This document shows positions 1 to 59,900 of a stretch of DNA of 64,000 bases, one piece after another. Under the pieces are notes generated by a model. That model did not search any database. It was not told the DNA's origin and saw only the letters and a program-made list of their open reading frames with translations. Both the position numbers and the translations under genes were made by a program. Source of the DNA: Tieghemostelium lacteum (taxonomy: Eukaryota; Evosea; Eumycetozoa; Dictyosteliales; Raperosteliaceae); assembly GCA_001606155.1 (NCBI GenBank), contig LODT01000051.1, positions 124,001 through 188,000 of the forward strand, in the 5' to 3' direction. How positions within the stretch are numbered: position 1 is the stretch's first letter; each line of letters begins with the position of its first letter.

Positions 1-166
1 TATACTTCAACAACATCCCACTTTAGTTTATAGTTTTGAAGAATTAGATTATTTTACTATTAATCTTCAAGCTCCCGATATTAAAACTATCAATGATGTT
101 GTTTATAAACTTAATAGAATTTATAATGAATTCTTATTGTCCGCACAAACAGTTTCTAAAGCATAA
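1..166 (+). CDS. 3' end of an unidentified gene (partial)
   Basis: Reading from base 2, 54 codons are open and end at a TAA at 164-166. The translated tail includes LVYSFEELDYF and INDVVYKLNRIYNEF, and ends in SKA. The composition is that of real dictyostelid coding sequence, with no low-complexity filler, and the other two forward frames are closed by stops. AT content rises sharply right after the stop, as expected of a 3' end. The gene begins outside the window, so neither its length nor its family can be judged. I do not recognise it. Confidence 0.6.
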   Translation, partial: ILQQHPTLVYSFEELDYFTINLQAPDIKTINDVVYKLNRIYNEFLLSAQTVSKA

Positions 167-4101: not shown

Positions 4102-7100
4102 TTAATTATTTTTGGATTTGTTTGCTGGTTTGTAACCAAGTCTTGAGGAAAGGGATTCTACTGGTAATACATTTGGAGAGAAGGTGGTAGATTTTAAGTT
4201 TTTAATGTTACCAATCTTACCATCGTAACCATGTACTGGAGCAGTATTACAAACTGTCATTTCTACTCTTTCAACTAAGTCATCTGAAAAACCATTTTCA
4301 GAGTTTTGGTAGAGATATAAGACAATATCTAAACCATAACTAGTTGGAACTGGTGGTAGTTTCTCAACAATTTCATAATCGGATTGCCATGAATGTTGTG
4401 AATAGACTTTAGTAACTTTAGTTGGTGTTCTCCATTCTCTAGGTCCCCAATCTTTTACAATTTCCAAAGCTAGGTTTTCTTTTGGTGGTTGAGCAGCACC
4501 GTATTGAGCATGTTTTTGGAAATGTGATAACAAGAATTGAACATCTTGTCTCTTCTTATCAGTAACAGGCAAGAAATCATAAAGGTCTGATTTATCAGGA
4601 ACTGTAATGGAAATTTCACCAACTGCTATAGGTTCACTCCATTCTGTATCGAAAATTGGAAGATCATATTCCTTGGTGGTCTTATTCAATTCATTTTGTT
4701 GAATTTTGAATTTTGCTTCTAATTTTACAGTGTGTTTACCTGAACCTTTTGCTAGTAAATGCGAGGCAAAGAAACCTGAAACTAATTTCTTTTCAGAGAG
4801 AGTGTGTTGGACACCTTCTTTGTGGAGGAGGTTGAATCCGTAGGTTCTCTTTTTACTGTATAGTTTAGCAGCAAAGAAACTGTGTAAACCATTACCTGAA
4901 GTTAGGTTTCTTTCAACACGTTTACCATCAATGAATGCATTGATTTGAACTAAGATCTCGTGTGTTTCACTTGGAAGCTGTTTGAGTTCATCTTTACAAT
5001 AGAAAGGTTTACCTTTAAATGGACCATCTTTCCATAACCCTATTGGGAAGTCTCTTAGTAACTGTGGAATTACGAATCTACAATAGACATTATCAGATCC
5101 AAATTTGAAATCAGATTTGAATTTGGCAGTCTCTGAACGTGCTAACATTGGTGCAATCTTGTCATGTGAGAATACAAATTTACCAACATGTGGTTTATTA
5201 CATGCATCCCAGGTTTGTTCTTGAAGTACTTCTTGGAATGGTAGTTTAGTTTGTGATTCAAGACCGAGTGTAATCTTGTCTACCAAATCTCTTGGATTTG
5301 CTGTCTTGGTCAATTCAAATGTACCACTAGAGATTGAAGTATAGTTGATATCAAAATCAGGTTGTGCCATATCAAATGCATTCTTTTTGTTGAAATCAGT
5401 ATTAAAGTAACCATAACGTAACTGAATCTCAACTTTATGAACACCAACGGATAGTTTTTCAATGGTATCATAGAATACAGAAGAGAGTTTATCATCTTTT
5501 TGACGTTTTTGGTAGATTGGAAGACCGAATGTTCTATCAGAATTATAGAGTTCCCAAACATCTTCAGAGTAAAATCCACCACTGGTATCCGATGGATTTA
5601 CAATAGGTTGATCATTGACAAGAATGTAAATTTGAATTCTAGGATTATGAGCTTGATTGTGGTTTCTGATTTTGGCAACCCCTTGGATACCATAAAAAGC
5701 TTTACCTTTTTGTGGACCGGTATTCCATTCGGCTAATGGATAGCATTTAAGAGGTTCTGGTAAATAAAATCTAACAAAGATTTGATCAACACCGTGAATG
5801 AATTGATTACGATTGTTTCTTTCAACATCACGTTTGGTAAGGAGTTGAGGTGGATCGTTGACATTGAAAACAGCTTTTCCATAGAACTGTTTGTTTTCAG
5901 ATTTGTTCCATTCTGGGTCTTCCTTGTTAGGGTGGAATGGAAGCCCACTTTCTAGACCTACTTTAATCTGTTTGAGATCTTTAACCATATTCTCTTCAAT
6001 GGCTTTAAGATAGTTAGCGTCTGCACCTGATGGAGCTGTAATTGATTTAAGTTTAGTCTGTCTAATGAGTGAAGCTAAAGCTTGTGAATTCAATTGTTCA
6101 ACTGTATCCAAAGCATTTTGATACTCAAAGAAACCATTATAACGTTCATAACAGTCTTGGAGATGTTGTTTAACCATTTTAGATTTTTCGTTGAGAATAT
6201 TACTAGCATCAACAGGTTTGAAAGTAATAGTGTTTCTCATGTGGTTTTTATCAAAATAGTCAAAGGATACAAAGGTAATAGTACCAGATTGCCAATCTCT
6301 ATGAAGTACATAATCACTAAAATCACCACCAGCTTGATCGTTTCCAGCTTTGGATCTAATGTTCTTTAACCATTTCAAACGGAATGAAATCTGAAGAATA
6401 TCCAAAATCAATCTATGTTGTTTCTTTACTTGTTCTTTAGTTTCCTCTAAAATCTTTTGGAAATCTTCAAAACCTTTATAAATCTTTTGAGAAAACTCTA
6501 AATCCTTAGCAGATGAGGCTTTAATATCAGCAATGGATTTCTTTAGACCTTCAATAGCCTTATTCATTTCATTTGTTCTATCATGTTTACCATCAACAAT
6601 TGGACCAAAGACTCTCTCCAAAAAGTATTCTGGATAACCTCCACCAATCTTCAAAAGAGTCAATTGAGCCAACTCTTTTTCATTGAAATTAATTTCTTTT
6701 CTAGTTTCAATAATACATGAACTAATCTTTTTAATAAATCCATTGTAAGCACCACTGAGACCTATTAAAGCAGGTGGAGTTTCCATGCCAACTGCAATAG
6801 GTAATAATAGTTTTTCAGCACCTTCTGCATAGACTTTTCTAAGTAACTCAGTACCATCCTTTGGAATTTCTTTAACTACTGAAGTCTCAGCAGAAGTACC
6901 TTGTTCTTTACCTTTAGTCTCACTCTTTACCTCTTTCAAAGATTCTGGTTCAAATCCAAATTTATCTTGATACAATTTTTCAAATTCACTAAGTTTGGTA
7001 GTGAATTGTTTCTTGAGATCATCAGCAACTGGTATACCTTGGTATAACTTGTTAGCTTCGAAATCCAAGAATAATTTCTTTGCAGTTACCATAAGTAACA

Positions 7101-10100
7101 ATGCATCATCCCAGAATTCTCTAAATGAACCTTTCTTGTAGAGAGTTTCAGCTTGATCAATTTTAGATTTGATATTGTAGATGTGTTGTTTAACTTCATC
7201 ACCCAATGCCTTTTCTTTGTAATCCAAGTCCATTGCAGTTACCAATTTCTCAAATTTCTCAACAAATTCATCACGTAATTTAACGCTATGGAATTTAGTT
7301 TGTTCTTTGAATTTCTTGAATTCATCATTGGTTTGGAGGAGTTTTTCATAGGCTTGATCCCAGAATGATTTTGGTGGACCTTGTTTGAATATTCTAGAAG
7401 CTTGGTTGTATCCAGATTCGAGTTTATCAATTTCCTCTTTAAGTTCATTTAAAAAGACTTTTTCATTGTACTCACCTTCAAGCTTCTTGATTCTAGAGTT
7501 GGCAGATTGAACAAATTCATCTCTACCTGCGATTCCATGATACTCAGTCTTGGCTTCAAATTCCAAGTAAGCAGGACGCATGGTAACCAATTGTCTTAAT
7601 GAATCGTCAAGGAATTGTCTACATGTTGCATTACGGTATGTAGACTCAGCTTCGTTGAGTTTGGAATTTAATTCTTGAATTTGAGTTTTAATTTCATCTA
7701 CCAAAACCTTTTCATTGTACTCTTTAGTGTATGTGTCTGAAGCTTTTTGGAATTCATCTAGGAATTGGTTGAGAATATCAACACCTTGATACTCCTTCTT
7801 TTCTTGTAACTGTTTTACAAGTTGTTTAGCTTTGACCATTTTCTCTAGAGACTGAGTCCACCAGACTTTTGGTGGTCCTTTTTGGAAATCAGCTAAAGCT
7901 CCGTTTAATGAGGTACGAATCTCAGAGATTTGGTAACGAATGTCATCTTGGAACACTTGTTCATTGTAAGAGACCTTGAATTTTTCAATTCTGGATTTGG
8001 CATCGAGAACAAATTGGTCTCTTTCACCTATACCAATGTACTCAGATTTCAATAGGAACTCTTGTAATTGTTGTTGAGTACGAACCATTTGTTCAAGTGC
8101 AATATCCCACCATGATTTGGATCCTTTACCAAAGGTAGTTTCAGCTTGAGATAATTGTGATTTCAATTGACGAATTTGTTCATCAACTTCTGATGCCAAG
8201 ACCTTAGTATTATATTGATCAATGAATTTCTCTAAACGCTTTTTAAAGTCTTCTACAAACTGATCACGAATAGCTACACCTACAAATTGTTCATTTTCCT
8301 CTAGTGTCTTAAAGAGTTGTCTTGCAGTAACAATCTTTTCAAGAGCTTCAGTCCACCATTGTTTTGGTGGTCCTTTAGCAAATGTAGTTTCAGCATCAGA
8401 TAATTTAATTCTAATTGGATCAATAGCCTCTTGAACTTCTTGAATAAATACCTTTTCTTTGTATTCCTTTGAGAAACGGTCTATTTGATCTTCAAATTCT
8501 TTAATAAATTCATCACGTTTGGATAAACCTCTGAATTGGTCATTTTGTTTAAATTCACCAAATTGAGTCTTTGCCTTTACCAATTGTTCAAAACCAGCTA
8601 ACCAGAATGCTTTACTACCTTTTTGGAAAGTATCCCATGCACCATTGTACAAAGTCTTCAGAGCCTTGATTGCATCTTCCAAATCTTGAGCTAACACTTT
8701 TTCATTGTATTCAACTTGGAATGTTAAAACTCTGCTATTGAATTGTTCAATAAAGCTCTCACGATCACCAACTCCTTTATATTCAGAATGAGATTCAAAT
8801 TCTTGGAACTTAGTTTTTGCTTTAAGAACCTTCTCCAATGCTTCAACCCACCATTGTCTTGGAGGACCTTTACGGAAAGTAGTTTCAGCATCAGATAGAA
8901 TGGAATTAATTTCATAAATTTGGTTCTTGACATCATCTACTAAAACCTTTTCAGCATATTCCTTCATGAATTTTGAATAACGTTCTTCAAAATCATCAAT
9001 AAGTTCATCACGAGCTGACATGGATTTGAATTCATCCTTTTGTTTGAATTCTGCTAAAAGTTCTTTACCTTTAACAATCTTTTCCAAAGCCTCAGTCCAC
9101 CATTGTCTTGGAGGTCCTTTACGGAATGATTCTTCAGCACCATTCAAGAACTGTTTTATAGGCCAAGTTTGTTTTTCAAATTCCTTTTCATAGATTTTGT
9201 TATTGTAATCAAATAGGAATTGAGAGGTACGTGATTCATATTTCTTTACAAGTTCATCACGTTGTTTTAGACCTACAAAAGTGGTATTCTCTTCCAATGA
9301 TTTGAATTCTTGTTTAGCCCTGCCATAGTATTCCATAGAATCATTAGTATAGATTTCAACATGATTACTAGCCAATGATTGCTCCATTTTATCCAAATTG
9401 GAAACTACTTGATAAGATGCTTTTTCAAACTCCTTGAGGGTAACCTTTTCTTTATAAGCATCCAAAAACTTATCAGATCTCTCTAAATAGGACAAAACGA
9501 TCTTCTCTCTCTCTGGAAGGTCAGTATAGTTACTATTCTCACTTAATGATTTATAAGCTTGTTTAGCCAATGACAAGTACTCCATGGAATCATCTCTATA
9601 GACATTTTCCTGTGGTTGTTGAATTGCTCTTTCAGCTTTATCCAAATTATCCTTAATATGGAAGATCTCTTTTTCCAATTCCTTAGTATAGACCTTGTCT
9701 TGGTATGTAGTCATAAACTTTGGAATTCTTTCACGAATATTATCAATTAATTCATTTCTACCCTTAATTGATATATATTGACTCTTTTGTTCAAATTCCT
9801 TTAGCAATTCTTTAGTCTTTCCAAGGTACTCCATAGAATCATTTCTATAGATATTCTCTTGAGGTTGTTGAATGGCTCTTTCAGCTTTATCCATATTATC
9901 TTTAATATCGAACACATCCTTCTCCATCTCTTTAGTATAAACAGTAGTACTGTATTTATCAAGGAACTGTGGAATTCTATTGGTAATATTTTCAATAACC
10001 TCTTCACGACCTTTCAAACCGATATACTTTGTCTCATCTTGGAATTGTGATAGCAACTCCTTAGCTTTTGACATGTACTCCATAGAATCATTCTTGTAAA

Positions 10101-12170
10101 CATTCTCCTGTGGTTGAATAACAGCTCTTTCAGCACGATCCATGTTATCTTTGATGTGGAAGATATCCTTCTCCATCTCTTTACTATAGACTATTTCAGA
10201 ATACTTTGGTAAAAAGTTTTCAAGACGAATAGTGATACTAACTACAACATCATCACGAGTTGGTAAACCTACATAATTTACATTAGAAGTCAACTCTGAA
10301 AGATACTTCTTACATTCACCATAATACTCCATAGAGTCATTTCTATAGACATTCTCTTGGGGTTGTTGTATAGCTCTTTCAGCTTTATCCATATTATCCT
10401 TAATATGGAAAATAATCTTCTCCATCTCTTTAGTGTATACCTTTGTTGAATAAGTCTCTAAGAATTTACCAAATCTAGGCTTCAATTTCTCAATATATTC
10501 ATCACGACCTCTAACAGCCAAAAAGTTTTCATTGGATTTCAAAGCCTCAAAATGAGTTCTAGCCAATGAAAAGTATTCCATAGAATCATTTCTATATGTA
10601 TTTTCATGTGGTTGTTGGATAGCTCTATCAGCTTTATCAATATTATCATTGACGTCGAATTGAACTTTTTCAAACTCCCTGGTATAAACCTTCATAGAAT
10701 AGTCTTGTAAGAACTTTTCAATACGAACTTGAATTTTAGTTTCCAATTCCTTAGCTTTTGGAAGATCTCTGACATTTTCATTATCTTTGATTTCCAATAA
10801 CCCAGATTTCACCTTACCCAAATACTCCATAGAATCATTCTTGTAGAGACTTTCTTGAGGTTGTTGAAGTGCTCTTTCAGCTCTATCCATACTATCAGTT
10901 ACATTGAATTGTAATTTCTCTAATTCCCTTCCATAAACCTTCTGGGTATACTTATCCATAAGTTTGGAAATTCTTTCTTTTGACTTTGTAACAAATGGTT
11001 CAAAATCCTTTAAATTCTTTAAATTTTCATTTTCTTCCACTACCTCTAGAGCCTTTCTAGCCAAACCCAAGTATTCCATAGTATCATTCTTATAGACATT
11101 CTCTTGAGGTTGGTCAACAGCTCTTTCAGCAGAATCCAAATTCTTCTTTACTTCATAAGTAGTACTATCAAATTCCTTAGCATAAATCTTTGCAGAATAA
11201 GCGTTCATAAATTGTAATTGTCTATCTCCAAACTTAGCAACCATATCCTCTCTATCTTTAATACCAACATAGGATGTATTCTCCTCCATCTTATTATAAG
11301 CAGCCTTTGCCAATCCAAAATATTCCATAGAATCATTCTTATAGATATTTTCTTGTGGTTGTTTAATTGCATTGTCTGCTTTATCCAAATTTGTCCTAAT
11401 TTATCAAAATTAATATTTTACATAAACCATAAACTAAACTATACAAAATACATACTTAATTTGATAAATTTCAGCTTCCAATGCTTTTGAATACAATTTG
11501 GTATTATGTTTCTTTAGAATATCATTATATCTCTGTTCAAAAGTTGGTACAAATGTATCTCTTGATTTAACACCAACATATTTAGATTCAGAATTAAATG
11601 GATCAAATAGTTTTTTAGCATTATTTGCATATTCAATAGTATCATTTTTCCAAATGTTTTCTTGTGGTTGTTGAATTGCTCTATCAGCTTTATCTAAGTT
11701 ATCCCTATATTTCAAATTAACAATTTTAAATTAGTATTAAAACATGCTAGTCAAACCATTTAACAATTGACATACTTAATCTGATAAATAATCTTATCAA
11801 CTTCAACAGTATAGATTTTTGAGTTGTAATTTGACATGATTGCACCAACTCTCTGATCATAAACATCTTTAACTGTTTGTTTATAACCTGCAAACTCTGG
11901 TTTTGAATCAATCAATGTATCAAACTTTTCCTTTGCTTTTCCAATATACTCTATAGTATCATTTTTCCAAATTGATTCATGTGGGAATTTGATGGCATCT
12001 TCAGCTTTTCCAATGAAAGTCCTAAAAAAATAAAAAAAAAGGAGGAAGAGAAATTAAATCAAACATATTAATATAATTAAAAATTAAAAATAATAATGTT
12101 TAACTTACTTTACTTGAGAAAATGCTTCATCTATTTTTTTTTGAATTTCCTTTTCATTTAAAGGCTCCAT
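4102..12170 (-). CDS. Giant 20-repeat alpha-helical protein with duplicated C-terminal module, function unknown
   Basis: Four exons (12109..12170, 11776..12021, 11456..11704, 4102..11395; all introns phase 2) encode about 2616 residues. After a 20-residue leader, 20 tandem units of 82-83 residues fill about residues 21-1690. Units 1-11 (class A) carry PQENVYRNDSMEY-like cores; units 12-20 (class B) replace this with KGPPRQWWTEALEK. Both classes share a middle YxGxxxRDExI and a tail ending xKVYTKEMEKxIFxI or EYNEKVLxDExxxQI, so they are one family. Each unit looks all-helical, perhaps three helices. The remainder includes a charged helical stretch, then two related beta-rich segments containing RFYLPEPLKCYPLAEWNTGP and RFVIPQLLRDFPIGLWKDGP. 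No signal peptide or membrane segment is seen. I do not recognise the family; a scaffold or cytoskeletal role is only a guess from the architecture. The start ATG follows an AT-rich leader. Confidence 0.88.
6955..9157 (-). repeat. Class B tandem protein repeats (9 units of ~82 codons)
   Basis: Nine units in which the PQEN/NDSMEY core is replaced by KGPPRQWWTEALEK, with decayed versions such as KGSKAFWLAGFEQ and NATCRQFLDDSLRQ. The second half of the unit, with RDEFIxxFxxR and EYNEKVL, matches class A in position. This shows a single ancestral unit that diverged before the two blocks were amplified. The last unit fades at about base 6955 into a linker rich in Glu, Ser and Lys. Confidence 0.83.
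9158..12021 (-). repeat. Class A tandem protein repeats (11 units of ~83 codons)
   Basis: Eleven consecutive ~249-base coding units in the giant protein gene. The consensus core is DKAERAIQQPQENxYxNDSM, followed by EY. The strongest conservation is in this first third; the middle varies. The first two units are each exactly one exon, 11776..12021 and 11456..11704. The last class A unit is atypical (SNHVEIYTNDSMEYYG) and marks the transition to class B. Confidence 0.85.
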
Positions 12171-12759: not shown

Positions 12760-15031
12760 TTAGTATTTTGTTATAATGTCCATTAGAACTTGCATATTTG
12801 GTCTACCAATACCTGATGGGATATCATATCCAGGGGTGGATTGGAAGCCATGTGGACAACAGGTTGGTGCATTTGGCATATTATAGATACCACATCTATT
12901 GTCACCTACAGTTACATCGTAGAATGCTTCGGGGTAGTCTTGAGCAATTTGATAGAGAAGTGGGTTAATGAAACCTAGTGGGTTGAGACCTGCTTTAAGT
13001 CTGATATCGTTGAGAATGGTAATGAGACCTGCGAATATAGGTGCACTTGCAGAGGTACCATCGACAGTCATCCAAGCACCGTTGTAGTAGATGTAAAGGT
13101 TATGACCAACAGTACTGACATCTGGATAGGCTCTACCGTTTTTATTGAATAGTGCAGCAGGTGGGAGAACTGAACTATAGTTACTAAGGTATCTTTCAAC
13201 AGCTTCGACTTGGTAGTATGCAGTTGAGGTTATGTTACTGAATGACCCACCGGAAGTCCATTGCATGCCATAGTCAATAGATACACCAACTTCACCAACT
13301 GGTTGTGAGAAGCAATCAATTCCACCTTCAGTTACGGATTCGTAGCATATTGGTTGATCGAGAGGTGTAAAGTATATTGCACCTACTGAAGTTACATAAG
13401 GTGAAAGGGATGGATATCCACCAGAGAGGAATGCACAGGATTGTGACATTGGGGGTTGTGGACCTAGAGCTGCAGCACCACTGTCCATAGATGATACAAC
13501 CATACTAATACCTAAAAGAGCAAGTTTTTGGAATTCAATTTCTGATCTTTGTAAATATCCATTTCCGAGGAACTGGTCGACATATTGTTCTGCAATTCCG
13601 TAACTTAGTGAGTTTACTAATGGAGGGTTGGAAGATGAGAATGCAGCAGTTGCCCATGAAAGTATATCATCAACACCCTCAGAGGTAAAAGTAGAGTTAC
13701 TGTAAATAGACCAGAATGTAGTTGGAGCTCCTGGAGCTATACCCATGATATACTGGATATCAAGTGTAGCTTCCACACCTGGATTTGTGAGGTTATTAGG
13801 ACCTACAAATGATAATTGGTAGTCCCATGGTAAACCCATTTCTTGGAAGAATGCGTCAAGGTCTGATGTAGCCATGAACTGTGACTCAAATTCAACTACA
13901 CATTGAGTGATATTGGTTGTTACTCTGTAACCTGATGGTACACCATAATAATCCTTAATCAATTGAGGTGTAATCACTGGTGTTGATATGAAAGCATATG
14001 GATAATCAGTGGACTCTTGAGTAATAGTATCAAATATTGAGACTTGACTTGGAAGGAATGGTATACTATTAAAAGTAGCCTGACAATTAACTACACCACT
14101 CTTATTGGTACATGTTGGTTGAATATTAAGTGTTTGTATATTTTGAGGGAACACAGTATTCAGTGCATGAATATACACATTAACAGGATTGGTAGTCATT
14201 GATGTACAATTTGGTGAACATGATGGTGTAAATGAAACCTGTGATGTCAATCCATATCCTAATAAACCTAAAATGTTTAATCCAGTAGTTGGTTGTGATG
14301 ATGATAGGATATCTTGATTCTCTCTAACTTTTTTATCTTTAACTAAAATTAAAAACAAAAATTAAATTTGGATTTTTTTAATTTATAAATAGTGGTGTGT
14401 GATTAGTTTTTGGCTATGAGTTTTGTGTTTGATAAAATTTAGATATGAGACTTACTTATTGGGAATGTTGAAATTCCAGTAATTAAATCAATGTGTTGTT
14501 TCAATTTATGTTGAATAGCTGGGTCTTCAAGTGATCTTAGAACAAATCCGCCAATGGCATGTTCAAATTTATGAATTTTAATGTTAAACATTTTCTCAAC
14601 ATTCTTTTTTGACATTGAAACTTTTAATACATCAATTTCATCAACTATTTATAGTTTTAGAATTAGTACATAGGCATTAAAGTTACTTAGATCCAATAAA
14701 CTAACATACCAATAGTAATTGGGTTATATGATTGTATCCATTTCTTTACACTATCAGAAGATTCCTGGGCTGGTGCAATAATACTCATAATCTCTTCACT
14801 AGTAAGATATTCTGTGTAATTTGGTGATTTTGGAGATGAGACATCTCTAACTTTTTCATTTAGTTTATCTAGATTTTGATGTTTCAAATAGATTTTAAAA
14901 AACATTGGATGATGATCTGAAACTTTTTCATCCATTTGTTTCCATTTTAATTCTTGATAGAACTTTGCATTACAAATTGATATTAATAGTAGTAAACTAG
15001 TTACAACAATTAATTTATTTTTAATTAACAT
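12760..15031 (-). CDS. Secreted sedolisin / tripeptidyl peptidase 1-like serine protease
   Basis: Three exons (14710..15031, 14456..14644, 12760..14342) encode about 697 residues. I chose the ATG at 15031 because it starts MLIKNKLIVVTSLLLLISIC, a clean signal peptide; an in-frame ATG 24 codons upstream would bury it. Exons 1-2 are the pro-kumamolisin activation domain (LTSEEIMSIIAP, FEHAIGGFVLRSL). The peptidase domain has the family's catalytic set: Glu and Asp in GVEATLDIQ (about 360-365), Asp in SSMDSGAAALG (about 458) and Ser in VDGTSASAP (about 601). C-terminal DVTVGDN and GYDIPSGIGRPN fit the Ca2+ site. The family cleaves tripeptides from N termini in acidic compartments; in dictyostelids it is multigene. 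Lysosomal or secreted location is inferred from the signal peptide. Confidence 0.93.
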
Positions 15032-17547: not shown

Positions 17548-17637
17548 ACTCAATATTTAATTATTTAGACATTATTGTAAAAAAATAAATTTCTAAAATA
17601 TTTTAAAATTTCTATTTTTTTTTAATACTTTTGGTTT

Positions 17638-18848
17638 ATGGAGTTTTTCAATCAAATTCAATATAAAGATGTAGAATTTGAAAAATATATTTCTATATTT
17701 AAGAATGGGTTAAATGCATCTTTATTTCAAAGATCATTTGCAATACATAGATTTCCTAGAGGTTTTGAAGAGACATTTTATGATATTAATAATGGTATTT
17801 CTAAATTTCAACCTAGTTTGTTAAAGTATCTCTCACATCATTTTTCATTTGTATTGAGAGGATATGATTTCATGGCTAGTATATTTGCAATTGATAATAA
17901 TAGTTGTAGTAGTAGTAGTTCACCTAGCCAAATAGTACACAAAAGCATAGCAATTACATTACAAACTAAAAAACTAAATACACAAGGTGAACAGGTCATA
18001 CGTGAGATTGCATCAGTTATTATAGTATCTTTAGACGATAATCATTGTACATCACCAACTGATCCTATTGAATATCATTTCCTACTATCAAGAGGATCAC
18101 CAACGTTAATTTCAATTCTACAACAATGGATACAAATTGAATTCTCATTAGCACTTATACCACTAGGTTTGAATACAAAATCACTCTATCAACTGTTACT
18201 TAAATGTTTAGAAAGAGATATTCAATATAAACTTCAGTACTTTAGAAAACAGGATGACAATTCAACTATTGATCTTGAATACTCATTCTCTGGTATGTTA
18301 CCTGATAATTGTGATTTAGAATCTCTAAAACTTCAAATACCAATTATTACAATGATATCTATAATTGAAGAGTACACAAAATCACAACCAAAACAGTCAA
18401 TTAATGAAGTAGCTATTACAGAGACTAAAAGTGATATACGACCACCACCAACTAGGAGACAAGGTTTATCTTTAAAAGATGAATCATTAACTCTACCAAA
18501 ATCAAGAAAACCATCAAAACTTCAAATCAACACCCTACCCAATTTCCTACAAACCCCACAATTTCATCAAGTTTTTTTACAGTCACTTTCTGATCTTTTA
18601 GTACAATCATTTGGATTGGATATCACTCAATTAGTTTTATTCAAAATCAATTGTCAACATTTATTTCTAAGTATTAGTGAACAACAATCTAAAATCATAG
18701 TATGTTATTATTATTGATGTTAATACTATAAACTTGTATATTTATTAACTTAATTTTTTTTGTAAAGTTTAATAATCAATCTAACCCATTACCAATACTA
18801 AAGGATATATTGGATGTTATTGATAATAATCAAAAATATTGCGTTTAA
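17638..18848 (+). CDS. CENP-L/Iml3-like kinetochore protein (candidate)
   Basis: Two exons (17638..18699 and 18768..18848, phase 0, intron GTATGT..AAAG) give about 380 residues. The clearest resemblance is the block YHFLLSRGSPTLISILQQW followed by FSLALIPLGL, which matches the LPLLLTR-x-P...W...F-x-x-R-x-S-P-L-x-L pattern I recall from CENP-L and fungal Iml3/Fta1 proteins. CENP-L pairs with CENP-N in the constitutive centromere network. A disordered linker rich in basic and Pro residues (about 275-300) precedes a short C-terminal helical segment. The fit is from motif memory only, so this is a candidate. The stop codon overlaps that of the convergent methyltransferase gene. Confidence 0.5.
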
Positions 18849-36124: not shown

Positions 36125-36200
36125 TTCATGTTGTAAAAATAAAAAATCAACTAGCTACAAAAAATAATCATTTTTTACGGTCATTATTTTAGTTTTAAAA

Positions 36201-37985
36201 ATGATTATAGGGAAATGTTTACAAAAAAACTATAGATTAATAATCAATAACCAACTTAAATCATTTATAGTTCCGAAATATAATAGTATAAACCAATATA
36301 GTAGATTTTATTGTACTGGTGGTAGTAAATCAATATTTGATAATAACGTACCAACTACAACTACAGATATAAAAGATAATATTGGTTCAAATACTAAAGT
36401 ACAAGCAGGAGATAATAAATCATCTTTAAAATTTCAAATTGAATTGGATAAACATTTTGAAAATGCCAGAGCAGCATTTAATGCTGAGAAATATGAGGAG
36501 GCTTTAACAGAGTATTATTGGATTATAAAGAGACTACCATTTGAATGTACAGCTTTACAAGAGAGATCAATGGTTTTATTGGCTTTGGGAAGATATGATG
36601 AAGCTATAGAAGATTGTGATGAAATTTTAAAGATTTCCAATGATGCCAATCAAATTGCAGAGACTTATAATGTAAAGGGTACATGTTGGATGAAGAAATC
36701 AGAGTATAAACGAGCAATTAGTGCATTTGAAAGATCATTAATGATGATTGATGATGATAAAGAGGTTTTGGAATTGAAGAGACAGTGCGAGGCTTTATTG
36801 AATCCTGATGAATTGACAGTACCTTCATATGAAGATGACTCGATTTTATATGATAGATTATCTGGTGAGATGATGGGTAATGCTCAAATTAGGTTATCTA
36901 GTATACATGGCAGAGGAATATTCGCAACTAAGGATATAGATGCAGAGGAATTGGTATTTGAGACTAGATCTATAGTATCCGTTCCCATGGAACTTGGAGA
37001 GAATATCTATAAAACCAAAGATACGCACCACTGTTTTAATTGTCACATTTCCATGAAACCCCTACAAATTGAAAATGAAAATGAAATTCAAAAATCTTCA
37101 GAATATAATAGAATTATAGACACCATTCAAAATATGACACAATTACCAGCTAGTGAGATATTGCCACTGAAATGTCCACATTGCAATGATGTTATATTCT
37201 GTTCGGATCCATGTATGGATATAGGTATGTTGAAACATCGTTCTATATGTTCACACAAACATCAAGAATATAACCTGTTAGGTAAATATCAATCAGAATG
37301 TGCAAAAATCTCTGATGAACATGAAAGATCAGTTTACTATCTCATGCTAAAGATATTCTCTTTAGAGTCCAACGCAGGAGACGCCCAACAACCTTTCAGA
37401 CCAATGGAACTAGACCAATATCTAAAGAGACTAATATACGCTCTACCAGATTCTATAAGATCTCGAACCAATATACACATTCGTAAGGACCCAAATAGAA
37501 TTCATCTCACTAGAAAAGACAAGACATTCTATCAGATTATAAAAGACATGTTCTCAAATCGACCTATAACACAAGAGTTATGGTACAGAGTAAAATCCAT
37601 TATACAACTAAATGCCTTGGCATTCCCAACCTGTGATATTAGTGTGCATTGTCAAAAATCACCAATGGATGAGTTGGGCTATTCCTTTGACTTTGACGAA
37701 ATACATAACCAATATCTACTAGGTATCATTGAACACGCTAGTTTCCTCAACCATTCATGTGAACCCAATCTATTTATTGCAACACCTATAATCAATGACA
37801 AATCCATTCGTTTCTGTTCCTCAAGACCAATTAAAAAAGGTGAAGAACTGTTTATCTCTTATATCCAAGGTGAGGATTTAACAAAAGTACAAAGAAATCA
37901 AACACTTTTTCAAGATTTTGGATTTGAATGTACATGTAAAGCATGTAAAGCTAACAAAACATGTTCACCTAAACAACTTGAATAA
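36201..37985 (+). CDS. TPR-SET-MYND (SMYD-like) lysine methyltransferase with mitochondrial-type N-terminus
   Basis: Single exon of 594 residues. The first ~45 residues are basic and hydroxylated without acidic residues (GKCLQKNYRLIINNQLKSF), like a mitochondrial presequence. TPR-type helices follow at about 88-205 (ARAAFNAEKYEEALTEYYWI, then ALGRYDEAIEDCDEIL). The SET domain opens with SSIHGRGIFATKDI (about 234) and is split by Cys/His residues of a MYND-like insert (CFNCHISM, CPHCNDVIFCSDPC, about 278-340). It resumes with EHASFLNHSCEPNL (about 515), KKGEELFISY and a post-SET CTCKACK. All SET landmarks (NHSC, ELFISY) are intact, so activity is likely; the target is unknown. Mitochondrial targeting is inference. 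Confidence 0.85.
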   Translation: MIIGKCLQKNYRLIINNQLKSFIVPKYNSINQYSRFYCTGGSKSIFDNNVPTTTTDIKDNIGSNTKVQAGDNKSSLKFQIELDKHFENARAAFNAEKYEEALTEYYWIIKRLPFECTALQERSMVLLALGRYDEAIEDCDEILKISNDANQIAETYNVKGTCWMKKSEYKRAISAFERSLMMIDDDKEVLELKRQCEALLNPDELTVPSYEDDSILYDRLSGEMMGNAQIRLSSIHGRGIFATKDIDAEELVFETRSIVSVPMELGENIYKTKDTHHCFNCHISMKPLQIENENEIQKSSEYNRIIDTIQNMTQLPASEILPLKCPHCNDVIFCSDPCMDIGMLKHRSICSHKHQEYNLLGKYQSECAKISDEHERSVYYLMLKIFSLESNAGDAQQPFRPMELDQYLKRLIYALPDSIRSRTNIHIRKDPNRIHLTRKDKTFYQIIKDMFSNRPITQELWYRVKSIIQLNALAFPTCDISVHCQKSPMDELGYSFDFDEIHNQYLLGIIEHASFLNHSCEPNLFIATPIINDKSIRFCSSRPIKKGEELFISYIQGEDLTKVQRNQTLFQDFGFECTCKACKANKTCSPKQLE

Positions 37986-58879: not shown

Positions 58880-59794
58880 TTATTTAGCAAATTCAATATA
58901 TGTAACCTTGAAACTGACTGGTCCTTTCTTGGAGACACAACCAAAGGTAAATTCAGTACCTGGTGCCATTGGGAATTTCCAAGCTGGAATAGCAAAGTTA
59001 CCATTTTCAGTGAATTCAACACCCCAGATATCTTTCTTTACATCTCTTGGGCTGAACCAATCACCAGCAAATTCCAAACAAGTAATAGCCTTTTTGTTCA
59101 TGTTCTTGATTACACCGTTATATTGTTGAACTTCAATACCATTTTGTACCCAAGAACTAGTGTTATCAGGTTTGGCAGAAATCATACAACAGTCCTTGCT
59201 AGCACATACAATTGGAGCATTGTAGTTTCTGTATGGGTCAGTAGCACATCTCTTCATTGCCATGATATCATCAACATAGACACGACCTTGATCCTCAGTA
59301 CCTAAAGTCAAAATTTGAATACCATCATATAAACCAGGTTCCAAAAAGTTTGTGTTGATTGTAGCTTGGATCCATTTACCTGCAAGAATACCGCTGGAGT
59401 TTCCACAAATGGATTCCTTACCCCACAAGAAGAAATCTTTGCTGACTGGTGTACCTGCTTTAGTGAAACGAACGTATAGTTTTTGACCTCCAGTTGTACC
59501 ACCGTGTACCCATAGAGATACAATACTGACTTTAGCTGGGTCAATTGGGTGTTCCAAGTGCATATAGATACCTTCATAGTTCTTTACGACCCAGGTAATG
59601 GATCTGTTACCAGAATGAGTTGGTTTGTCATTATCAAATTTTCTGGTACTGGCCCAAGACCAATCCTTAACAGTTGGGTGTAGAGCATCACCATAGATGA
59701 GTAAGTCACAACCATCAGTGCAACGTGATTGTACACTTCCAACTAACAATACTGTACTGATACAAAGTAATAATAAGTAATTTTTGAAATACAT
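58880..59794 (-). CDS. Secreted protein with C-terminal CBM49-like cellulose-binding domain (304 aa)
   Basis: Single exon. A signal peptide (NYLLLLCISTVLLVGSVQS, about 5-23) is followed by a Cys-containing beta-sandwich module (RCTDGCDLLIYGDALHPTVK to VYVDDIMAMKRC). It resembles a galactose-binding-like carbohydrate module: the ILTLGTEDQGRVYVDDIMA end strand is typical. The last ~95 residues fit CBM49: a hydrophobic NKKAITCLEFAGDWFSP strand, IWGVEF, and then AIPAWKFPMAPGTEFTFGCV, the family's proline/glycine signature. CBM49 proteins bind cellulose in dictyostelid stalk, sheath and spore walls. No catalytic domain is seen. The upstream region carries several G-boxes, which suits developmental expression. 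Confidence 0.75.
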   Translation of the reverse strand: MYFKNYLLLLCISTVLLVGSVQSRCTDGCDLLIYGDALHPTVKDWSWASTRKFDNDKPTHSGNRSITWVVKNYEGIYMHLEHPIDPAKVSIVSLWVHGGTTGGQKLYVRFTKAGTPVSKDFFLWGKESICGNSSGILAGKWIQATINTNFLEPGLYDGIQILTLGTEDQGRVYVDDIMAMKRCATDPYRNYNAPIVCASKDCCMISAKPDNTSSWVQNGIEVQQYNGVIKNMNKKAITCLEFAGDWFSPRDVKKDIWGVEFTENGNFAIPAWKFPMAPGTEFTFGCVSKKGPVSFKVTYIEFAK

Positions 59795-59900
59795 TCTCTA
59801 TTATTCTAGTCTAGATGATTCTTTCAAAAATAGTTGATTTGAATAAATAAAATTTTAAAATTATATTTGTTCTATTTATATTAAAATTATTATTCAATAT

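Follow-up and report, generated by a model that had tools for sequence, protein, structure and literature searches.

A 2616-residue protein of Tieghemostelium lacteum with twenty 82-83-residue helical repeats in two classes and a predicted spectrin-like layout

We analysed a stretch of 64,000 nucleotides from Tieghemostelium lacteum (contig LODT01000051.1, positions 124,001 to 188,000 of the forward strand), hereafter the window, to whose own numbering all positions refer. On its minus strand lies a four-exon gene for a giant repeat protein. The spliced open reading frame (ORF) has 2616 codons followed by a TAA stop, and its product has a mass of 306 kDa, a pI of 6.0 and only 9 Cys in its 2616 residues. 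The three introns are 87, 71 and 60 nt long and all have GT...AG ends. The window is low in guanine plus cytosine (22-37% per 2 kb) and encodes asparagine runs; like the short introns of this gene and a CBM49 gene elsewhere in the window, these traits fit a dictyostelid source without proving it. A GH116 glucosidase-like gene lies tail to tail with the giant-protein gene, 84 bp apart. We put at about 0.5 the probability that the product is a soluble, probably cytosolic, spectrin-like rod of twenty mini bundles with a C-terminal docking module, acting as a spacer or tether. The gene and its repeats are arranged as follows.

4102-12170, minus strand: whole gene, exons 12170-12109, 12021-11776, 11704-11456 and 11395-4102, encoding 2616 amino acids (splicing and translation, open frame)
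11396-12108, minus strand: span with the three introns (12108-12022, 11775-11705 and 11455-11396) and exons 2 and 3 (splice model compared with unit borders, MAFFT alignment)
9157-12113, minus strand: class A units A1-A11, residues 20-932, introns included (period, unit borders, tree)
6922-9156, minus strand: class B units B12-B20, residues 933-1677 (unit borders, tree)

A preliminary description of this locus had claimed a protein of this length at these coordinates, built from twenty repeats of two classes that share one pattern. The splice model, a period scan and the cutting of individual units all agree with it. When residues 1-1680 were compared with themselves, the mean BLOSUM62 score was 1.66 at offset 83, while all 25 other offsets (70-82 and 84-95) scored below zero; a composition-shuffled control averaged -0.72 (standard deviation 0.05, 300 shuffles). 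The array covers approximately residues 20-1677 and consists of 20 units of 82-83 residues, the first 11 of class A and the following 9 of class B. Units A2-A11 are each exactly 83 residues long and free of indels, as a rod of fixed pitch would show. Unit A1, in which MAFFT places small indels, measures 83 residues from residue 20 or 82 from residue 21. The class B units were delimited by anchors of their own, which gave seven of 83 residues and two (B14 and B16) of 82. In an IQ-TREE phylogeny of the 20 units, a single branch parts the 11 A units from the 9 B units with a support of 100/100 and recurs in every one of 200 bootstrap trees; of the 17 inner branches, 10 lack resolution.

The introns are in register with the repeats, a feature which the preliminary description overlooked together with the C-terminal tandem domains described below. 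All three are in phase 2 and interrupt codons 21, 103 and 186 (spacing 82 and 83 codons), the codons at which conservation begins in units A1, A2 and A3 of the MAFFT alignment. Since the introns fall on unit borders, exons 2 and 3 encode one repeat unit apiece. Exon 4 carries 18 units, and exons 1-3 together encode no more than residues 1-19 and units A1-A2. Introns placed in this way are compatible with growth of the array through duplication of one-unit exons, of which they would be a record; intron loss, or duplication inside the intronless block, would have followed. We compared the proportions of synonymous (pS) and nonsynonymous (pN) differences among A4-A11 (8 of the 11 A units, 28 pairs), leaving out A1-A3, which introns interrupt either within the unit or in the first codon. 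The median pS was 0.67 and the median pN 0.36. The class A copies are therefore old, and a recent gene amplification was rejected because synonymous sites have changed heavily.

Constraint is not spread evenly over the class A unit. The preliminary description had called a core, written PQENxYxNDSMEY, unusually invariant. When all 11 A units were scanned with a 22-column window, conservation peaked at columns 5-26, with an identity of 0.66 against 0.32 outside, and none of 5000 column permutations reached equal conservation. Among A4-A11, the mean pN was 0.18 in these columns against 0.43 elsewhere. By these sequence comparisons the constraint on the class A core is real, which bears out the invariance, although the literal string is exact in just 4 of 11 units (A3, A7, A8 and A9). 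Four further units carry one mismatch, and A1, A2 and A11 carry three to five. The tight class B signature that had been proposed alongside did not hold: in an ungapped count its literal core is exact in only one of the 9 units, has one mismatch in two and at least four mismatches in six. The same region leads weakly in class B (window 7-28).

Predicting the structure of consecutive units had been suggested as a check, and we ran AlphaFold2 on A9-A10-A11 with an alignment made of six non-overlapping triples of the protein's own units. For this class A target it returned confident helical repeats, with a mean predicted local distance difference test score (pLDDT) of 93.0 and a predicted template modelling score of 0.70.

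9157-9903, minus strand: units A9-A11, modelled, with helices at 2-11, 16-39, 49-94, 99-122, 130-177, 182-205 and 213-246 (AlphaFold2)

In the model, 24-residue helices alternate with helices of 46-48 residues. The 46- and 48-residue helices span the unit borders, so that helix C of one unit is continuous with helix A of the next. Class A units are thus predicted to be short three-helix bundles joined by continuous linker helices. From helix lengths only, and with all helices assumed axial, the net rise would be 33 angstrom per unit, or approximately 66 nm for twenty. TPR, HEAT and annexin repeats were rejected, as the modelled units consist of three helices with a long linker instead of short pairs of helices, and rows for these repeats were absent from the Pfam scan of exon 4.

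The model also gives the conserved core a place. We counted as conserved the columns kept by nine or more of the 11 A units, which gave 21, and computed their axial positions from helix lengths alone, no atomic coordinates entering. Sixteen of the 21 fall in the bundle half towards the next unit, although this half accounts for 40 columns out of 83 (hypergeometric p 0.003). Unit A11, which adjoins class B, breaks five of the 21 (columns 7, 10, 13, 14 and 16), all at the joint end, and retains NDSMEY. This clustering at the joint end, together with the partial loss in A11, suggests the core as a joint between units, one that most likely governs how neighbouring A units meet. The preliminary description had put forward a repeated binding or modification site; its helical repeats, two classes and unrecognised family stand, the last within the libraries searched, and the site is not needed where the core is explicable as a joint.

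Beyond the array, residues 1678-2616 (approximately 940 residues) form a module separate from the repeats, made up of a helical stretch, two domain copies of approximately 230 residues and a 154-residue tail.

5968-6885, minus strand: mostly helical region, residues 1690-1995 (low-confidence model; sub-threshold MLKL_N match)
5269-5967, minus strand: domain D1, residues 1996-2228, first tandem copy, probably beta-rich (BLASTP match to the D2 region; low-confidence model with strands)
4567-5268, minus strand: domain D2, residues 2229-2462, second tandem copy (BLASTP, alignment with D1)
4105-4566, minus strand: C-terminal tail, residues 2463-2616 (no Pfam row)

D1 and D2 match each other in BLASTP with 69.7 bits (E 3e-18), at 25% identity over 230 aligned columns and 27% in a second alignment. 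A Pfam scan of 4105-4587 gave no row to E 10. The helical stretch matches MLKL_N, the MLKL N-terminal bundle, over 53 residues and below threshold (E 0.0038; 17.2 bits, where the cut-off is 27). An F0F1 subunit B model from NCBIfam (E 0.0034), matched by the C-terminal part, was set aside as below its curated cut-off, and a match of the domain pair to galectin LEC-6 among PDB sequences (E 0.11) was not credible. The structural model of the module has a pLDDT of 37, and the Foldseek list obtained with it, in which DgpB/C (E 0.02) was followed by kinesins and T-cell receptors, was dismissed as meaningless.

For relatives we searched Pfam, NCBIfam, PHROGs and PDB sequences, and collections of viral, prokaryote genome, plasmid and phage sequences. 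The Pfam queries were exon 4, 18 of the 20 units singly, two consensus pairs (the best 25 of 44 and the best 25 of 28 rows) and three multi-unit stretches, besides the C-terminal windows. Neither the family libraries (Pfam, NCBIfam and PHROGs) nor the PDB sequences yielded a credible relative; the best match among the latter was a xylanase at E 0.056, which was not credible either. Separate scans of viral contigs gave 3, 97 and 35 pattern matches and those of prokaryote genome contigs 98 and 104, none of them confirmed. Plasmids, queried with the C-terminal part and with the repeats, held no credible relative, a Pectobacterium match to the repeats (E 0.03, 74 residues) being judged chance, nor did phages, queried with the repeats only. 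The family would thus be unrecognised in the sense of being absent from these libraries, which include no eukaryote collection. None of the titles and abstract openings listed in literature searches describes this protein, and the core peptide strings returned 0 papers.

Several rows reached low E values in these searches; they were discarded because they are mutually inconsistent and cover short helical stretches. The strongest, DUF1986 (PF09342), passed its cut-off of 25.2 bits on an 830-residue stretch of repeats (E 2.2e-8, 34.9 bits), where its best stretch spans 40 residues and 40 of the 116 profile positions. Membership would call for a match above the cut-off in the whole protein, and exon 4 fell just under it (24.7 bits, E 3.3e-5). 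A9-B20 reached E 0.002, and one of the 18 single units matched, at E 0.055. We rejected this identity and read the score as summed weak helical matches, as we did phrog_6540 (E 7e-7, 35 residues), of which no stretch passes alone. Matches below curated cut-offs were set aside: Med15_N (4.2e-5), DUF7539 (3.2e-4), Chal_sti_synt_C (3.9e-4) and bDLD2 (2.3e-4) with the artificial consensus pairs, CRC_subunit (1.6e-4) with B16-B20, and Rh5 (3.2e-4) with one unit.

Against PDB, Foldseek gave 129 matches to E 10 for the A9-A11 model. Of the top ten, 8 are spectrin or plectin spectrin-repeat entries, none of them significant, the best having E 0.35, a probability of 0.82 and a template modelling (TM) score of 0.41. 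In spectrin repeats, the third helix carries on as the first helix of the unit that follows. Tandem three-helix units with such a continuous linker helix, as in the rods of spectrin, the plectin plakin domain and alpha-actinin, are what is predicted here. SbsC-type S-layer rods, which are bacterial and secreted, are likewise elongated arrays of triple-helical bundles, and SbsC stands at rank 27 of the Foldseek list. On the other hand, that match has only E 2.7 and a TM-score of 0.30, and no membrane-spanning stretch is evident in the giant protein.

Putting these observations together, the N-terminal two thirds of the protein would form a long, semi-rigid rod in which twenty three-helix bundles, each like a miniature spectrin repeat, follow one another. 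With the third helix of every unit passing unbroken into its neighbour's first helix, the array would be one staggered three-helix bundle, rising approximately 3.3 nm per unit and 66 nm in total. The conserved class A core, at the bundle end towards the next unit, would set the A-A joint, and class B units would be joined in the same manner by a variant rich in Trp. Specific docking would most likely be done by the C-terminal module, with its helical stretch, two probably beta-rich domain copies and tail. The protein would then be a molecular spacer or tether, holding this module away from, or along, another structure. No transmembrane-like segment was found in the whole protein (top 19-residue Kyte-Doolittle mean 1.43), which together with the low number of Cys fits a cytosolic protein. 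From hydropathy, the Cys count and the rod model, we infer a soluble intracellular location.

Several points weigh against this reading. The AlphaFold2 model is built on six rows from a single protein, with a class A target. Neither the best 50 of the 129 Foldseek matches to PDB nor the search of viral models gave one at E 0.001 or better, and the TM-scores (by query) of the spectrin-type rows lie at 0.27-0.45 among the matches listed. Five of the 21 conserved columns lie outside the joint half, columns 31 and 59 at mid-bundle and 75, 77 and 78 slightly past the joint. A1 and A2, at the opposite end of the array from A11, break six and five of the 21, and the class B exceptions cluster in B18-B20; the ends of the array may simply diverge, giving the losses in A1, A2 and A11. 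The conserved polar columns of helix B encircle the whole helix, beyond the packing needs of one bundle, so that they could include a binding surface. The mean pS among A4-A11 is also lower in the core columns 5-26 (0.58) than elsewhere (0.72), and the class B core is not significantly above the rest in conservation (permutation p 0.13). Finally, the pLDDT of 37 is too low for the model of the C-terminal module to be used.

The encircling conservation bears on another explanation, in which the core of class A units, like the Trp core of the B units, is an exposed binding or modification site, repeated 11 and 9 times respectively. We consider such a docking scaffold rather unlikely, and with it the idea that one molecule would gather many partner copies, for example along a filament. 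Conservation of helix B does extend approximately 120-160 degrees off the hydrophobic direction (N17, N21, M24 and E25), although a helical-wheel angle obtained without coordinates is a rough proxy, and the low pN of the core persists in spite of heavy synonymous change. By contrast, the bias of the conserved columns towards the next unit, and the simultaneous loss of five of them in the A unit adjoining class B, speak for a joint. We give still less weight, and very little, to the idea that the protein is neither rod nor tether and serves as a membrane-curvature or lipid-associated scaffold through its C-terminal module, the repeats forming a curved solenoid. A long array without transmembrane segments and the MLKL_N resemblance of the helical stretch would suit it. 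However, that match is one among many tests, 53 residues long and approximately 10 bits below its cut-off; the repeats carry a net negative charge (A -17, B -13), which disfavours binding to acidic lipids; and the module would have to be judged from an unusable model.

The remaining question is whether a spectrin-like rod would also be a spectrin relative. That the protein is a far-diverged member of the spectrin, alpha-actinin or plakin superfamily, with shortened repeats and a lost actin-binding head, strikes us as improbable, somewhat less so than the lipid scaffold. Helix order and the continuous linker helix match in the model, spectrin entries head the Foldseek list, and the artificial two-unit class A consensus reached the periplakin spectrin-like repeat PF23160 below threshold (E 0.042, 14.9 bits against 27). 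Set against these, no PF00435 row appeared among the Pfam rows listed for exon 4, the 18 units, the consensus pairs and the multi-unit stretches. A spectrin repeat has a length of approximately 106 residues, whereas all 20 units here have 82-83 and their helices are shorter. Members of the superfamily carry an N-terminal CH actin-binding head; the repeats here begin near residue 20 and leave no space for one, and the scan of exon 4, outside which exons 1-3 lie, gave no CH row. Rows for CH, EF-hand and PH were absent from the Pfam tables of exon 4 and the C-terminal windows. The two sharply separate unit classes and the tandem C-terminal domains of unrecognised kind are also unlike spectrin rods, and three-helix rods can arise convergently. 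A significant match of the unit profile to spectrin had been named as what would overturn the unrecognised family; none appeared by sequence, though in predicted layout the units agree with spectrin repeats. Judged by the model, then, the giant protein resembles spectrin in layout, and membership fails on sequence profile and unit length. We tentatively regard it, at somewhat less than even odds, as a new helical-repeat family: a mini spectrin-like rod with an 83-residue pitch, acidic-aromatic and Trp joints in two blocks and a new tandem C-terminal domain, serving as a spacer and grown from one-unit exons. If the rod is real and evolved independently, it would mark a separate origin of the spectrin-like solution, built on shorter units, and a comparison of the two classes of unit could then reveal what governs pitch and stiffness at rod joints.

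Besides the giant-protein gene, further ORFs were noted in the window. The ORF at 17626-18714 (plus strand) matches the Pfam centromere protein L family (PF13092) with E 1.5e-6 and 28.1 bits, above the cut-off of 24.4. At 36168-37982 (plus strand), an ORF combines a SET domain with TPR repeats; the SET match takes 318 residues for 104 profile positions, and the domain thus includes a long insertion. The ORF at 58883-59797 (minus strand) has a CBM49 carbohydrate-binding domain (E 1e-12) and, by eye, a signal-peptide-like start. Finally, a 533-residue ORF at 12763-14361 (minus strand), without a Pfam family at E 1e-5, contains the stretch GTSASAPIFAGL, which we take to resemble the sedolisin active site.

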